42,277 nt of DNA from Chloroflexota bacterium. Its GTDB lineage: Bacteria > Chloroflexota > Anaerolineae > UBA4142 > SHND01. How positions within the stretch are numbered: the first letter of the stretch is position 1; each line of letters opens with the position of its first letter. The notes below the pieces were generated by a model, which was not told the DNA's origin, made no database searches, and saw only the letters and a list, made by a program, of their open reading frames with translations. Shown one piece after another: positions 3,639-27,600 of the stretch. The translations under genes and the position numbers were made by a program. The stretch lies in contig JAKOPZ010000174.1 in NCBI GenBank assembly GCA_029778615.1, positions 1-42,277 of the forward strand. The letters are read 5' to 3'.

Positions 3639-6600
3639 ATGAAACAACATTCGGCGCTCCGCACGCCAAAAGCAATTCGCGCCCTTTTGGCAGCTCTGCT
3701 TGGCATTTGCTTTATCCTCTTTGCCCTCACTGCAAAAACTCCCGCGACCCCTGCCGCGCACGCCGATGCGCCCAACGCCGATTTGGAAATTTCGGTCGCG
3801 TTCGCCTCGGCGGAAACGGCGGCGGGCGAAACGATTACCTACACGTACAGCATTCAAAATAACGGACCCGCCATCGCGAAACGCGTCAAAATGAACGCGC
3901 GCATTCCAAAGGGCGCGACGATTCAAGTCGTGGAACCTGCGCGCGGAAATTGTGTTGCTCCCGCGCCGGGCGAACGCCGCGTGCTCGTCTGCAAACTCGG
4001 GCGTCTGCGCGCGAACGCGCAGGTGACGATTCAAGTGCGCGCGCAAATTGAAACGACAAAAAGCGAATTGAGATTCAAGGCGAATGTTTCGAGCGCGACG
4101 AGCGACATTGTAAAGGCGAACAACAAGACGACGGCAGCATTGATGGTTCAAAAAGTCGCGCCGCCGGCTGCGCCAACTGTTTCCTACCCCGCGCCGAATT
4201 CGCCAAGCGCTATCCACGCGACATTTCTCGTCACCAACACGAATACGAGTGGCGCCGGCTCTTTGCGCCAAGCGATTCTTGACGCCAACGCAAACAATCC
4301 TGTCCATGACACCATAACGTTCGATATTCCGGGCGTTGCCAACACAATCATTCTTGCCTCGCCATTACCCGCGATTACAGACGCGGTCACAATTGATGGA
4401 ACCACTGACCCGGACTATGACTCGACACTGCCTCCGATTATTGCCATTAGCGGCGGCGCGTTGGCGAGCGGCGACGGTCTCGTTTTGGATACGGGCTCGG
4501 ACAATAGCATCATCAAGGGCTTGGTCATTCAGAATTTCCCCGGCGATGGCATTGTCATTCGCACGGACGGCAACACAATTCAGACCAACTGTATTGGTAC
4601 TACGTTGGGGTGTAACGACAATGGCGACAACAACAACGGTATCGTCATCGAGTTGGGCGCGTCCGGCAATGTAATTGGCGGGAGTCGTACCTCGCTCGCG
4701 CAGTGTGATGGCGAGTGCAATGTTATTTCCAGCCATCGCAATACCGATGCCGTCGGTATTTGGATTCGCGATGCCGCAAGCGGCAGCAACACCATCACCG
4801 GAAATTTTATTGGCGTGAATTGGGATGCAACGCTTTCGCTGCCCAATACGTACGGCATTCGCATTGACGATGCTTCAAATAATATTGTCGGCGGACCGAA
4901 TCACGGCGGCATCAACGGTTTCGAAGATAACGTCATCGCGGGAAACAATCAAAGCGGAGTGCAAATTCGCAACGCGACCGCGACCAACAACAAGGTCGTC
5001 GGCAATTACGTTGGCAATTCGCCCAACCCCGCCAATGCAGGGAATGTTTCGAATGGCGCGAATGGTATCGAAATCACCGGTTCGGATGCCAACATCATTG
5101 GCACCGCGCTCGCGGGCGAACAAAACACTATCACGGGCAACGGCGGCGACGGAATTTTTCTCAGCAACGCGAGCAATAATTCCATCACCAGCAACCGTAT
5201 CGGCACAAACCCGGCGGGCACAGGAGTCATTCAGGACAGCACGCTGACGGACGTACTAAACGTTGGCGATGGTGTTCACATTCTCGAAGGTTCGGGCGCG
5301 TCAACCGACAACAACATTATCGGCAACATCATCGGCTTGAACGGCGCGAATGGCATCGAGATAGACGGCGGCGGAAATACCGGCAACAGCATTCAGGGCA
5401 ATCGCATTGGCATTGGCATTGATGGAAGCACTGACCTCGGAAATTCTGATTTCGGAATTTCGCTAACCGCTGCGGCGTCTGCGACCATGAGCACCATTGT
5501 CGGCACAGCCACCAAAACGGATGGTGCGTGCGACAACGGCTGCAACATTGTTTCGTACAACGGCGCGCCCGGAATTTTTCTCGGCAGCTCTGACGGCAAC
5601 ACCATTCAAGGCAATTACATCGGCGTTCAAGCGGATGGCACAACGGCTGCAACCAACAGCGGCGACGGAATTTCCATTGTTGACAGCAATAGCAATACCG
5701 TTGGCGGAACGAACACCACTGAAGGCGCGTGCGATAACGCCTGCAATGTCATCGCCCATAATCGCGGCGATGGTGTTTCGGTAGCGGCGCCGGGAGGTGT
5801 TGCCGCGCATCTGAACCGTATCCTTGGCAATTCCATTTTCAACAATTCCCAAGGCATCAATCTCGTTCCCAGCACTGTAACCGGAAACGACGGACAAATT
5901 TCCCAAGTCCTTACATCGGCAGAATCGGGGAGTACGACGATTGTGTGGACAATGAGCGGTAGCGTTGGTGATTCGTACCATTTTGAATTTTTTGACAATC
6001 CAACTTGTCCCGCCCAAGGGAAATTATTCATTGGCTCGTTTGACGCAACACTTGTCAGCACTTCAGATTCGTTTGTTCACACCTTTACTACAACTTCGCC
6101 CGTAGGCAATGGAATTTCCGGTACCACAACGTACACCGGACCGAGCGCAACTCAAACCAACAACACCTCCGAATTTTCCAACTGTGTTGTTGTCGCTGCC
6201 GCGCCGACTTTTACTCCCACCAATACACCCAGCGACACACCAACGGCAACACCAACTAACACGCCAACCGATACACCCACCGATACGCCCACCGCGACGG
6301 CGACGGATACACCGACGGATACGCCCACCGCGACGGCGACGGATACACCGACGGATACACCAACCGCGACGGCGACGAATACACCGACGGATACGCCGAC
6401 GAATACCGCAACTGCCACCGCAACAAGTACGGCGACGAATACCGCAACCGCAACATCAACCAACACCGCAACGCCAACCGCGAGCAACACCGCGAGTGCG
6501 ACGCCAACGAATACGACAACCGCCACCGCTACCACAACGCCGTCGAAAACCCCGAAACCAACGAAAACATTTACATCAACCGCAACGCCGGGCACCGCGA

Positions 6601-20231: not shown

Positions 20232-21557
20232 ATGAGCATCTCTCTCGAAGCCAACACGCGTTCGGCAGAATTGTTTGCGCGCGCACAAGAATCGGTCGCG
20301 GGCGGCGTTACGTCGGTGGTGCGCGGTACGTCGGCGGGCTGGCTGCCATATCCGCCCATGATTCAACGCGGCGACGGGTCGCACTTGTACGATGTGGACG
20401 AGAACGAATACATTGATTACGTGCTCGGACACGGACCGCTGATTCTGGGGCATCGCCCGCGCAATGTCACGCAAGCCGTCGCGCAAGCGATTCTCGAATA
20501 CGGCAACATGTTTGCGCTGCCGTACGAAATGGAACAGCGCGTCGCGGAAAAAATTCGCGAGCGGTTTCCCTCGATAGAGCTGGTGAAATTTTCCAATTCG
20601 GGTTCCGAAGCGACGCATTACGCGGTGCGGCTCGCGCGCGCACTTACGGGACGCGACAAGATTATCAAATTCGAGGGACAGTATCACGGCTGGACGGACG
20701 CGACCGAATACAGCTATCATCCCGCCATCAAAGATTTGGGACCGCGCACTGCGCCGCGCACCATTCCCGCCGCTGCCGGAACGCCGATGGATTATGCGCG
20801 TTTGGTCATTACGCAGCCGTGGAACGACGCGGATATTTTGCGTAAAACTTTACGCGACCATCGCGGCGAAATTGCCGCAATCATCACCGAACCGATTATG
20901 GCGAACTGTGGCGTGATTCCTCCCGCGCCCGGTTATTTGAAATTTTTGCGCGAGGTGACGCGCGAGAATGACATGCTCTTGATTTTTGACGAAGTGATTA
21001 CGGGACTGCGCGCGTCACGCGGCGGCGCACAAGAATTGTATGATGTGAAACCCGACGTGACCGTTTTGGCAAAAGCGTTGGGCGCGGGGTTCGCCGTCGC
21101 CGCGTACGGCGGCTCGCGCGCAGTGATGGAACCGGTGGCGCGCGATGAAATTTTGCACGCGGGAACATACAACGCGAATGTGGTGGCGATGAGCGCGGCG
21201 AATGCTACGCTCGACGAATTGAACAAGCCGGGAACGTACGAAAATTTGGAACGCGTGAGTGCAAAATTGGCGAATGGTGTACAAGAAATTTTTGCGCGCG
21301 CGGGCATTCCCATACAGGTGCAGCGCGTCGCGTCGTTTTTTCAAATCTATTTTTCGCCAAAACCAATTCGCGAATATCGTGACGCGGCGCAACATGCAGA
21401 CCTCGTGAAATTTCGCAAACTGCAAGTGGCGTTGCGCAAACGCGGTGTGTTGATTTATCCCAACGGGTTGGGACGCTGGTTCCTTTCGACCGCGCACACG
21501 AATTCGGATATTGAAGCGACGCTGAACGCGGTGGAAGATTCTGTCGGAGAAATCTAA
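20232..21557 (+). CDS. Class III PLP aminotransferase, glutamate-1-semialdehyde 2,1-aminomutase-like
   Basis: 441 residues, the family length. It shows SVAGGVTSVVRG near the N-terminus, ELVKFSNSGSEATHYAVRLA (PLP phosphate-binding), FEGQYHGWTD, LLIFDEVITGLR (Asp contacting the PLP ring) and VTVLAKALGAGFA with the PLP lysine at 281. This is the HemL branch of class III aminotransferases. HemL makes 5-aminolevulinate for tetrapyrroles, but many paralogues act on other amino compounds. The PPMIQRGDG and WFLSTAHTNSDIEATL segments do not settle this. No other haem gene is nearby, so the substrate is left open. The transcript appears leaderless. Confidence 0.82.
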   Translation: MSISLEANTRSAELFARAQESVAGGVTSVVRGTSAGWLPYPPMIQRGDGSHLYDVDENEYIDYVLGHGPLILGHRPRNVTQAVAQAILEYGNMFALPYEMEQRVAEKIRERFPSIELVKFSNSGSEATHYAVRLARALTGRDKIIKFEGQYHGWTDATEYSYHPAIKDLGPRTAPRTIPAAAGTPMDYARLVITQPWNDADILRKTLRDHRGEIAAIITEPIMANCGVIPPAPGYLKFLREVTRENDMLLIFDEVITGLRASRGGAQELYDVKPDVTVLAKALGAGFAVAAYGGSRAVMEPVARDEILHAGTYNANVVAMSAANATLDELNKPGTYENLERVSAKLANGVQEIFARAGIPIQVQRVASFFQIYFSPKPIREYRDAAQHADLVKFRKLQVALRKRGVLIYPNGLGRWFLSTAHTNSDIEATLNAVEDSVGEI

Positions 21558-21685
21558 ATGTCACTTGAGCGCAGTGAGAAATCTGAATGTCATTTCGAAC
21601 GCAGTGAGAAATCTGAATGTCATTTCGAACGCAGTGAGAAATCTCGATGTCACATAAGGAGATTTCTCGTTGCCCTCGAATGACT
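21557..21685 (+). repeat. Tandem 30-bp repeats plus inverted half (GTCATTTCGAACGCAGTGAGAAATCT)
   Basis: Three units of 29-30 bp (21557-21585, 21586-21615, 21616-21645) are followed by an inverted piece (GAGATTTCTCgttgcCCTCGAATGAC). The ends match the TIR-like ends of the 125-bp element at 18723, so this is a related palindromic repeat with an amplified half. It is not a CRISPR because there are no spacers. Confidence 0.8.
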
Positions 21686-23288: not shown

Positions 23289-23321
23289 AGGGCTTTCGCA
23301 AGCGCACCAACAAAAATGATG

Positions 23322-23350
23322 AACCCGCCGTTAATCGGCGGGTTCTGTTT
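23322..23350. terminator. Intrinsic terminator between convergent genes
   Basis: AACCCGCCG (23322-23330), loop ttaat, CGGCGGGTT (23336-23344), then CTGTTTTTT on the plus strand. The stop codon of the minus-strand MntA-HepT ORF is inside the hairpin. Confidence 0.85.
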
Positions 23351-24149
23351 TTTCGGCATTGTCAATGCCGCGACGCTTCATTTCAGCGTTGAGCATGTCT
23401 CGCACCAATGGCAAGTATTTCGGAATGGATTCATGAATCGTATCCCAAATGATTTGATACGAGAGGCGGTCGTAGGCATGCGAGATGATATTTCTCATGC
23501 CCACCATGTTTACCCAAGGAATGTCAGGGTACATTCTGCGAATTTCAGACGGAATACGCGTTGCCGCTTCACCGACGCGTTCGATTGTCCGCTCAACCGA
23601 GTCGCGTCGCATTCTGTCTGCAACCATCTCCTCAAAAGTAATCCCTTTAACATATTCTTGAGCCAACTCCATACTTTCCACAATATCTTGCAGAAAATCC
23701 AGATACTCGCGTTTGGGTTCCATCGTTCTCCCATTCTGTTTGCCATTTTGAGTGCGCCGCGGCAATCGAACAATTTGCGGCACGCCATCTTTTTGCAGCC
23801 AAATCACCTGAGGCAGTACATTCTTACTAATGTAGGTTCTGAGAGACCGCAATTCATGCATTTCCACATTTGTCCCAACCAACCCCGATAACTCTCGTTC
23901 CAAATCCATCCATTCAGAAAAGGTAATTGCTCCTCCATATTCCACCAACACATCCAAATCACTCATCACCTTTTGTTCCCCGCGCGCATACGAACCAAAG
24001 ATGCCGAACGATTTGATATTGTATTTTTCAGACAACGCGGGCAATGCGCGTCGCAACGCACGCACGATGGACGCGCGCGAGCGCGGGCGCACGCGTTTGC
24101 GATTTGTTTTCATACTTGCCGATTTGATGGCAACGGCTGTCGTTTTCAT
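23331..24149 (-). CDS. mntA-hepT: Fused MntA-HepT (MNT nucleotidyltransferase antitoxin + HEPN RNase toxin)
   Basis: 272 residues in one uninterrupted ORF. The N-terminal half is a minimal nucleotidyltransferase: GIFGSYARGEQKVMSDLDVL keeps the GSX10DXD motif (Gly52, Ser53, Asp64, Asp66). The C-terminal half (about 143-272) is a HEPN/DUF86 domain with GEAATRIP and RNIISHAY, which is the RX4HXY motif of HepT RNase toxins. In the known MntA-HepT systems these are two genes, and MntA adenylylates the Tyr of RX4HXY to silence HepT. Here the linker contains an ATG (23723, MEPKREYLDFL) preceded by GGGAGA, so free HepT could also be made. The upstream start is a leaderless ATG at 24149. Confidence 0.85.
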   Translation of the reverse strand: MKTTAVAIKSASMKTNRKRVRPRSRASIVRALRRALPALSEKYNIKSFGIFGSYARGEQKVMSDLDVLVEYGGAITFSEWMDLERELSGLVGTNVEMHELRSLRTYISKNVLPQVIWLQKDGVPQIVRLPRRTQNGKQNGRTMEPKREYLDFLQDIVESMELAQEYVKGITFEEMVADRMRRDSVERTIERVGEAATRIPSEIRRMYPDIPWVNMVGMRNIISHAYDRLSYQIIWDTIHESIPKYLPLVRDMLNAEMKRRGIDNAEKTEPAD

Positions 24150-24156
24150 CACAAGA

Positions 24157-24162
24157 ATTGTA
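24157..24162 (-). promoter_or_regulatory. -10 box TACAAT for a leaderless mntA-hepT transcript
   Basis: Minus-strand TACAAT with 7 nt to the ATG at 24149 and no Shine-Dalgarno. Confidence 0.5.
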
Positions 24163-24182
24163 ACGGCGAAAAAGGAAATCCG

Positions 24183-24540
24183 TCAAACCTGACCTTTGAC
24201 AATGGCTATCTCCGCCTCACTCAACCCGTACAAAGCAAACACCGCGTCGTCAATCTGCTCATCCGTCCGCGCAATCCGTTCTTGTAATTCCGCGCGCCGT
24301 TCCGCGTCCAATTCATTCGTCGCCTGCAAATCCTTGTGCAGTTTCAGCATCCGTTCCACCAACGCGACGATGGTGTCATGCGCGCGTTTTTCGGCAACGT
24401 CGGAAAAAAATGAATTGATGCCGTGTATCCGATTCATTGCGCGTCATGCGCTCGTGCGGCGACAAATGTTTGAATTTGCCCACGAGCTTGCCAACCTTTT
24501 CGTATGCCGATTCTTTTGTCACAGGCGCAAAATCCAACAT
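24183..24540 (-). pseudogene. Remnant of a type II (Eco57I/PglX-like) restriction-modification gene: N- and C-terminal ends joined
   Basis: From 24540 the minus strand encodes MLDFAPVTKESAYEKVGKLV followed by LSPHERMTRNESDTRHQFI, which resembles the N-terminus of restriction-modification proteins (NE..TR..FI). That frame then stops. In another frame, 24437-24183 encodes FSDVAEKRAHDTIVALVERM ... LYGLSEAEIAIV, which is the typical C-terminal tail of Eco57I/TaqI-type methylase-specificity proteins. The methylase core is absent, so a large deletion with a frameshift around 24405-24420 explains the layout. The C-terminal tail is recognised with good confidence, the N-terminal piece less so. Confidence 0.6.
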
Positions 24541-24602
24541 GAGCAGTTTCTCCCAAACATAGATGTGCTGATTCTAACAAAGGCAAAACAACGCGTCAAT
24601 GA

Positions 24603-24620: not shown

Positions 24621-27600
24621 ATGCGCCTCAAAACCGTCCAAGTTCACGGATTCAAAACGTTCGCCCATCCCACCACCTTTCATTTTCAAGATGGCATCAC
24701 CGCCATTGTTGGACCGAACGGCTGCGGCAAATCAAACATCGCCGACGCCATTCGTTGGGCGCTCGGCGAACAATCGCCTTCCAACCTGCGTACCAAAAAA
24801 ACCGAAGACCTCATTTTCACCGGCAGCGCGACGCGTCCCAAAATGGGCATGGCAGAAGTCGCATTGACGTTAGAGAACCCGTTTTCGCTGGAGGAGCGGG
24901 AACAGGAGGTAGGGGATAGCACTGAAATTTCGAGCAACGGTCATCCCCCATCCCCCAGCCCCCGACCCCCTTCCTCCATCGTCGAAGAAATTTTGCGCGC
25001 GCGTCCGAGTGAAGTGACGGTGCTGCGGCGCGCGTATCGCAGCGGCGAAAATGAATATCTCATCAATCGGCAGCGCGTGCGTTTGCGCGATGTGCAGGAA
25101 TTGTTGCAGCGCTGGGGACTCGCGCGTTTGACGTATGCGGTCATCGGGCAGGGCTTGATTGACCAGGCATTGTCACTGCGCGCCGAAGAACGCCGCGCGC
25201 TGTTTGAAGAAGCGGCAGGCATCGGACTGTATCAAAACAAAAAAGCCAACGCGCTCGAAAAGTTGGAAGAGACGCAGCAAAATTTAATTCGCGTCAACGA
25301 CATTATCAATGAAATCGCGCCGCGTCTGCCCTCGCTCGCGCGGCAAGCCGACCGCGCCGGAAAATACGAATCCGTTGCCGCCGCGCTCTACGCGCATTTA
25401 AAGCAGTGGTACGCCTTTAATTGGAAACACGCGCAGGAAGGATTTCTCGTCGCGTCCAAACAAGAAAGTGACGCGCGCGAAAAATTGAACGCGCAGCGCG
25501 CGACCATGCAAGACCTCGCCGCGCAGCTCACCGAATCGCGCCGCACCGCGCAAACGCTCCGCGCCAAACTGGACGCCCAGCGCCGCGCACAGCAGCAGCG
25601 CGAAATGGAATTTGCCGCGCGTGAACGCGACCTCGCCGTTTTGCAAGAACGCATGCGGTTCACCGAAACCCAACTCGCGGACGCGCAGCGCGAATGGGAT
25701 AAAGCGAACGAATTGGTCAACGCCACGCACGCGCTGCTCGAACAATTTCAAGCACAGCCGACAACGCTGGCGGTTACAGAAGCGCCCGCCGAAAGCGCGT
25801 CGTTCGAAATGGACACGCGCACCGAGGCCGAACAATTGGCGCAGCTGGAGCGCGCACACCGCGCCGAAATCGAAACCCTTGCCGCAGAGTTCCAACAGGC
25901 GGACGCCGCACACCGCGCGCAGATGGAGCAACTCGACGCCAGCGTGCAGGACGCGGACGCCGCGTGGAATGCCGAAAGCGCAAAACTTGCCGCCGCGTGG
26001 CGCGCATCCCTACAAGAAAAACACGCGCAGTTGGACGCGCACGCGCAGCAGCGCGCAGAGGAACGCGCCCAGCGCGAAGCCGAACGCGCGCGCGCCCTCG
26101 TCAAACAGCGGCTCGCCAATTTGCGCCTCCAAGAATTCGCCGCATCCCAGTACGGAACGCTCGCCGTAGCGTTCCCCGACGCCGTAGCGTTCCCCGACGC
26201 CGTAGCGTTCCCCGACGCCGTAGCATTCCCCGACGCCGTAGCATTCCCCGACGCCGTAGCGTTCCCCGACGCCGTAGCGTTCCCCGACGCCGTAGCGTTC
26301 CCCGACGCCGCAGCGCTCCCCGACGCCGCAGCGCTCCCCGACGCCGCAGCGCTCCCCAAAGCCGCAGCGTTCCCCGAAGCGGCTCCGCCTGATTTAGAAA
26401 TCAAATCGGATTTGGAAGCCAAATCCGATTTGGCAGCGCACCTCATTTCGCTCCAAGAAAAATTGCCGCTGTACGAATCCGCACTCGCAGCTGTCGCGGG
26501 TCTCGCCGCGCGCGCGGACGACCTCGCGCGCCGCGAACGCGCATTACGCGAGCGCGAACGGTTACTCGAACGCGTGCGCCAGGAACAACTGGAAACGAAA
26601 AACGCGCTCGCGCTTGCCGAGCGCGAAGTGGAATTTGCGCGCGCGCAGCAAGTGAATGCCCAACGCGAACGCGAACGCGCCGAACAAGCGCTGGAGCAAG
26701 AACGCGCACGCGCGCAGCAGGAACGCGAACGCGAACAGACGCAGCGGCGCGAACAGCTGGCGCGGGCGCGCGAACAACTGCGCCGCGAGCACGCGCAGCT
26801 CGTCCGCGAACGCGAACGTCTCTTGCAAGAACGCACGCGCGAACAGACACGCGAACGCGAACGCCGCCGCGAACGCGCGTTGGAACAACAGCGCGCTGCC
26901 GAACGCGAACGCGCGCGCATACAGCGCGAACAACAAGAAACACGCGAACGCTTGGCGCGGGAACACGAACGCGCAGTGCAAGAAGAACGCGCCAAACGCG
27001 CGCGCGTGGAAAGCTTTGCCGCGCAGCGCGCCGAAATCGCGGCTGCGCGCGCCATCGCACAGGCGCAGGTGGACGAAATGCGCGCCGCGCTCCAAGAGCT
27101 CAACGCGGTGGCATTTCCCGACGAAGCGGCATTGAACGAGAGCGAACGCTTGCAGACCGAATTGGAAGAACGCGAAGCCGCGCTCCGCAGTGAATTGACG
27201 ACTGCCGAAGAATTGTACAATCGCGCGGTGCTGGAAGCGGAACGCCGCCGCGCCGAAATCGCGCGCCTGGAACAAGAAATCGAGGACGACCTCGGACCCG
27301 TCGAGTTGGATTCTGCCGCGCCGCGTCAACTGCGCTTGCGCCTCGTGGTGCGACCGCGCGCAAATCCCAGTGGAGCGGAAGAAAGCGCATCGCTGACGGA
27401 CCTGTCGCCGGAAAATGTGGAAACGCCGGAACAGGAATTGGTCACGCTGCCCGAAGTGGACGCGCTGCCCGACGGCTTTGAAAAAGAAATTCGCCGCCTG
27501 AAAAATCAGATGCGTTACATCGGCAATGTGAATCCGAACGCGCCGCAAGAATACGCAGAACTCAAAACGCGACACGCGTTCCTCACCGAACAGGCGACCG

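Follow-up and report, generated by a model that had tools for sequence, protein, structure and literature searches.

How could a type VII toxin–antitoxin system balance its toxin against its antitoxin if both were encoded by a single open reading frame (ORF)? This question is raised by a locus in the window, by which we mean the whole 42,277-nucleotide stretch analysed here, contig JAKOPZ010000174.1 of a Chloroflexota bacterium. Yao et al. 2020 (PMC7641770) showed for HepT/MntA systems that RNase activity, neutralisation and the adenylylation of HepT, which adds three AMP units at Tyr104 (tri-adenylylation), depend on two sets of motifs. An earlier note on this DNA had placed the GSX10DXD motif of MntA and the RX4HXY motif of HepT in one 272-residue frame, with an ATG at 23723 following GGGAGA at the place where a separate hepT would start.

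Domains and motifs of the fused ORF

The fused mntA-hepT ORF is encoded on the minus strand at 23331–24152, and the plus strand at the same coordinates does not encode this protein. It runs from a GTG at 24152 or an ATG at 24149 (272 amino acids from the ATG) to a stop codon ending at 23331, and is seen in the ORF listing, in Pfam matches and, in frame, in an orthologue (L003/L050). The stop codon is contained in a bidirectional terminator-like hairpin (23321–23345) common to the fusion and the DUF2196 gene. The nucleotidyltransferase (MNT) domain, at 23811–24056 on the minus strand, matches PF18765 (Polbeta; 40.9 bits, cut-off 26.9) and PF01909 (NTP_transf_2; 38.1 bits, cut-off 21) over residues 33–114 numbered from the GTG, and holds the GSX10DXD motif (23952–23996; G52, S53, D64 and D66 numbered from the ATG). 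The HepT-like ribonuclease (HEPN) domain, at 23400–23678 on the same strand, matches PF01934 (90.4 bits, cut-off 23.5; residues 159–251 numbered from the GTG) and holds RX4HXY at 23472–23495 (R219, H224 and Y226 numbered from the ATG). A linker of about 23 residues (residues 120–142; 23724–23792, minus) joins the two. The motifs and coordinates given in the earlier note thus stand, with the minus strand as the coding one. Against the HepT and MntA equivalog models of NCBIfam (NF047751/NF047752; cut-off 60 bits) the fusion scores 44.3 and 42.8 bits and the orthologue 39.5 and 53 bits, all of them below the cut-off.

An AF2 model from a 57-row alignment (mean pLDDT 87.2) has two confident domains, with a pTM of 0.66 that makes their relative orientation uncertain. 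The MNT domain found its best fold match in 1wot (Z 13.2, rmsd 1.8 over 98), and the HEPN domain matched the HepT of S. oneidensis (6m6u_G, Z 12.3) and the A. flos-aquae HEPN (7ae2/7ae9, Z up to 11.8). Whole-length Foldseek matches to aminoglycoside nucleotidyltransferases superposed poorly (rmsd 10–12, TM about 0.3). By DSSP and pLDDT the linker region is of low confidence at about residues 126–149, and helix alpha-4, as in MNTs of the S. oneidensis and A. flos-aquae type, was not found between residues 116 and 149 of the model. MNTs without alpha-4 reportedly failed to neutralise in two systems, and the Legionella MNT, which also lacks it, modifies weakly (PMC11586414). Separate MntAs of the same order are short as well, so the fusion does not stand out by lacking this helix.

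An orthologue, a paralogue and selection

The orthologue lies in G404, a genome of the same genus, on a contig (L003/L050) of an 'uncultured Chloroflexi' MAG. It is 73% identical, open throughout, and keeps both motifs and the internal Met. The earlier note had proposed looking for a missed stop or frameshift near 23725–23760 and for orthologues split at the junction; the orthologue has no such lesion, and no orthologue is split into two genes. At the codon level the fusion ORF is under purifying selection, with dS 0.68, dN 0.17 and dN/dS about 0.25 overall between window and orthologue. By part, dS/dN was 0.47/0.145 for MNT, 0.36/0.13 for the linker and 1.04/0.18 for HEPN, the last corresponding to a dN/dS of 0.17. 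The linker has zero indels or stops relative to the orthologue and a pN of 0.12 against a pS of 0.29, an estimate from 25 codons that is too short for a firm test. R219, H224 and Y226 are kept in both proteins although the 31 surrounding residues are only 58% identical. The HEPN domains of these two proteins sit together on a long branch of the HEPN tree (1.25), and given this branch their activity may have changed.

A second copy in G404 (L049) is a distant paralogue, with 43% identity over the matching stretch and about 40% in alignments. It is in frame across the junction and ends inside HEPN at the contig end. The pattern WL-(Q/R)-(K/R)-DG...RL.R...M..KREYLDF is common to the window fusion and L049 (in outline WL-DG-RLPR-M-KREYLDF), so the linker predates their split. 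A scan of genome contigs returned one orthologue only. Among five same-genus genomes the orthologue is present in G404 alone, which argues against a strong core function. Viral contigs searched with the fusion gave zero matches, and four matches from a phage collection were all distant (25–27% identity).

Relation to two-gene pairs and to other fusions

The earlier note also held that MntA and HepT are normally separate genes. This stands insofar as two-gene pairs are ordinary in the phylum; it has to be qualified in that fusions were already known (PMC3710099) and we found several more. In 43 of 46 two-gene pairs the hepT start precedes the mntA end, mostly by 4, 8 or 11 nt, and the overlaps (usually 4–29 nt) place hepT in another reading frame. 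Since the ordinary arrangement in the phylum is thus a pair of separate, mostly overlapping genes in different frames, the fusion is the derived state. For the same reason, loss of a single stop cannot alone create it: its origin had to bring the frames together and add a linker. The MNT tree places the fusions of the genus inside two-gene MntAs, among them those of the same order.

The search for other MNT–HEPN fusions suggested in the earlier note returned further in-frame cases with both motifs: L005 (G319), L010 (G023), L105 (G574) and a tandem pair, L106 (G659). The L106 genes (L106:1373-3130) have identical C-terminal ends. Two weaker plasmid cases, L047 (pUO1) and L048 (Aeromonas), are open across both domains, with record annotation covering the DUF86 part only. 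L004, masked at the junction, was left out of the count; G412:C67 and G413:C106 looked fused in tabulated results and were rejected, each being two genes. That the examined fusions keep both motifs is partly by construction, as the motif search required RX4HXY; similarity-search rows spanning both domains in one open frame also carry it. Mapped on the tree with the other fusions included, the fusion label changes 5–6 times, and supported HEPN-tree branches make at least 4 of these changes unavoidable. On this phylogenetic evidence, MNT–HEPN fusion is an event that arose several times independently.

Two candidate translation starts

The internal ATG (Met143; 23721–23723, minus) would give a 130-residue HepT, and its Met is kept in 3/3 genus fusions. 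It is preceded by GGGAGAACG, and the Shine–Dalgarno (SD)-like GGGAGA (23727–23732) has its GGAG core 4 nt before the ATG; this spacing, also found in L050, is shorter than usual. The site lies where a separate hepT would start, as the earlier note had it, and its anti-SD pairing is strong: −7.3 kcal/mol, with pairing at least as strong at 0.8% of the 904 internal ATGs found in the window and in about 218 kb of its genome. The corresponding energies were −8.4 in L050 (0.3% of internal ATGs) and −6.5 in L049 (1.8%), so that pairing is strong in 3/3 genus members. An exact SD k-mer count had been equivocal, with the internal SD weak and lost in L050, and was reversed by duplex energies that allow wobble pairs. 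Because the SD sequence and spacing of L049 differ from those of the window yet pairing is strong in both, the site looks kept for function. We did not find lowered synonymous divergence around the internal start (6/24 vs 30% overall). Together, the sequence comparisons support an internal start at Met143 whose ribosome-binding site is strong and has been maintained. In the phylum, 33/46 two-gene pairs carry an SD at the hepT start. Among other fusions, L105 and the second L106 copy lack a strong internal SD, and L010 lacks a junction Met.

The fusion's own start is without an SD (+1.2). Upstream is a promoter-like TTGACG-18-TACAAT (24157–24186, minus) whose −10 element ends 7 nt before ATG 24149. 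Of the −10-like hexamers within 60 nt upstream of SD-less genes of this genome, 13/22 sit 6–17 nt before the start, compared with 0/10 for SD-bearing genes, in both cases small numbers. This clustering suggests that leaderless starts are likely common in this genome, and the fusion's own start looks leaderless. Inspected by eye, the regions upstream of L050 and L049 do not show the signature, and a leaderless start may be specific to the window fusion.

Genomic context

The gene order at the locus is DUF2196 (+), the terminator-like hairpin, the fusion (−), an Eco57I-type methylase remnant (−) and SMC (+), and it is the same in G404. G402 and G401 show the empty site, with DUF2196 and SMC 97 bp and 65 bp apart, respectively, and in G403 and G400 other genes occupy the interval; the module is therefore a mobile insertion, gained at a variable site. 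The window's genome holds at least one further ordinary MNT/HEPN two-gene pair (L002).

Several other features were observed. The remnant (24183–24590, minus) is of the Eco57I/TaqI restriction-modification type: its 84-aa ORF aligns with the C-termini of 940–1100 aa frames with Eco57I and TaqI_C domains from the same order, and immediately upstream, in a different frame, is an N-terminal-like piece. In G404 the same place holds a smaller remnant; a short frame located upstream of the fusion orthologue there (L050:5180-5300) may, by eye, be a fragment of another small antitoxin-like gene. In the central region of the SMC gene, an 18-bp repeat present 12 times (26162–26377; 95% match) encodes a VAFPDA repeat that is missing from the G404 SMC (1097 aa vs 1166). 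Elsewhere in the window are a long array of 12/24/36-bp repeats at 6212–6493 (consensus e.g. TACACCCACCGA) and, between two genes at 21547–21652, a 30-bp unit repeated 3.6 times (GAGAAATCTGAATGTCATTTCGAACGCAGT).

Discussion

The window fusion, like its orthologue, is a single ORF, and this makes it a variant, not a standard member, of type VII HepT/MntA. It shares with the systems of S. oneidensis (SO_3166/SO_3165), A. flos-aquae and L. pneumophila both motifs, both folds and an MNT upstream of HEPN. It differs in being one polypeptide rather than two adjacent genes, in a short MNT that, like the Legionella one, lacks alpha-4, in a full-length chain that is equimolar, and in a putative internal start in place of overlapping genes. 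We favour, at a probability of about 0.55, a single-gene type VII module in which a self-modifying fusion is accompanied by an internally started HEPN, with a role in defence or addiction. Full-length protein would start at the leaderless GTG/ATG and form HEPN–HEPN dimers. Its MNT would adenylylate Tyr226 of HEPN, equally possibly in its own chain or across the dimer, and block the RX4H RNase site, with the linker perhaps replacing the docking helix alpha-4 missing from the MNT. Initiation at Met143 would supply an extra 130-residue HEPN without an antitoxin of its own, which would join and be modified by the fused MNT; both this short product and the RNase activity of HEPN are predicted from sequence. 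Loss or saturation of modification, through low ATP, slow synthesis or AMP removal, would then free active RNase. The probable role would be that of a defence or addiction module acquired beside the SMC gene.

A built-in control of the toxin:antitoxin ratio via the internal start is plausible in view of the solved complexes, where each MNT is accompanied by one or more HEPN (MNT:HEPN 2:6, 2:2, 1:4; PMC11586414). We would go further only tentatively, to a scheme in which the two starts themselves set the ratio, a leaderless self-adenylylating fusion against an SD-led free toxin, a shift favouring SD-led initiation releases toxin, and such catalytically intact fusions are recurrent.

What if only the full-length protein works, autoinhibited in cis, and Met143 and its SD-like site are unused leftovers of a former hepT? 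Both could have been inherited from a two-gene ancestor, as hepT starts carry an SD in most pairs, some other fusions do without a strong internal SD or a junction Met, and a cis antitoxin–toxin chain has a precedent in EzeT (PMC4826407). However, pairing is strong throughout the three genus members, even in L050 (dS 0.68) and in L049, whose sequence and spacing are very different, and we regard idle leftovers as possible but less likely. A domesticated MNT–HEPN nucleotidyltransferase whose HEPN is not an RNase would fit the published view that MNT-fused HEPN is typically inactive (PMC3710099), the whole-length Foldseek matches and the long HEPN branch. It is made improbable by R219, H224 and Y226, all kept amid less conserved residues, by poor superpositions on aminoglycoside enzymes and by the good matches of the single domains to MNT and HepT.

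Chance survival of a decaying mobile module beside a degraded restriction-modification gene would account for the broken Eco57I-type remnant immediately upstream and for the patchy distribution in the genus. It is hard to reconcile with the lack of stops or frameshifts in either orthologue and a dN/dS of about 0.25 at dS 0.68, and we give it very little weight. Finally, since pairs usually overlap by 4–29 nt in another frame, one indel error in sequencing or assembly could join them. Yet an independent assembly has the same frame and a linker of equal length, the paralogue has a different in-frame linker, and overlapping pairs contain no such linker; the in-frame orthologue and paralogue rule out assembly error, and the chance of any such artefact is negligible.

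EzeT of E. coli and CapRel likewise hold an antitoxin and a toxin domain in one chain, with unrelated toxins. Their antitoxin domain acts by binding the toxin and is not known to modify it. The fusion's architecture fits such single-chain toxin–antitoxins in principle. Reported HEPN–MNT fusions also place both domains in one chain: HEPN-M is 'occasionally fused to MNT', with MNT-fused HEPN domains that 'typically lack' RNase residues (Anantharaman 2013, PMC3710099), and a fusion is carried by pAgK84 (Makarova 2009, PMC2701414). The 305-aa pAgK84 protein is without RX4HXY, whereas the window fusion keeps it. In aminoglycoside nucleotidyltransferases and GlnE, too, a Pol-beta nucleotidyltransferase precedes a helical domain that resembles HEPN, the latter without the RNase motif (PMC3710099); in contrast to domesticated enzymes whose HEPN lacks the RNase residues, the window fusion and L050 have R, H and Y present. 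A literature search that reached few subscription journals found no description of a catalytically intact, dual-start HepT/MntA fusion, and an HEPN–MNT fusion with intact catalytic motifs and apparently two starts is apparently new here.

The intact fusion qualifies the expectation that HEPN domains are dead when fused to MNT. A natural fusion fixes the MNT:HEPN ratio within one chain, with the internal start as a genetic handle on that ratio, and it makes in-chain modification and the need for extra free HEPN addressable by point mutations. Recurrent fusions offer a simple route to testing how the HepT toxin family is controlled. If the two-start reading is true, this would be a single-gene type VII system that sets its own toxin:antitoxin ratio.
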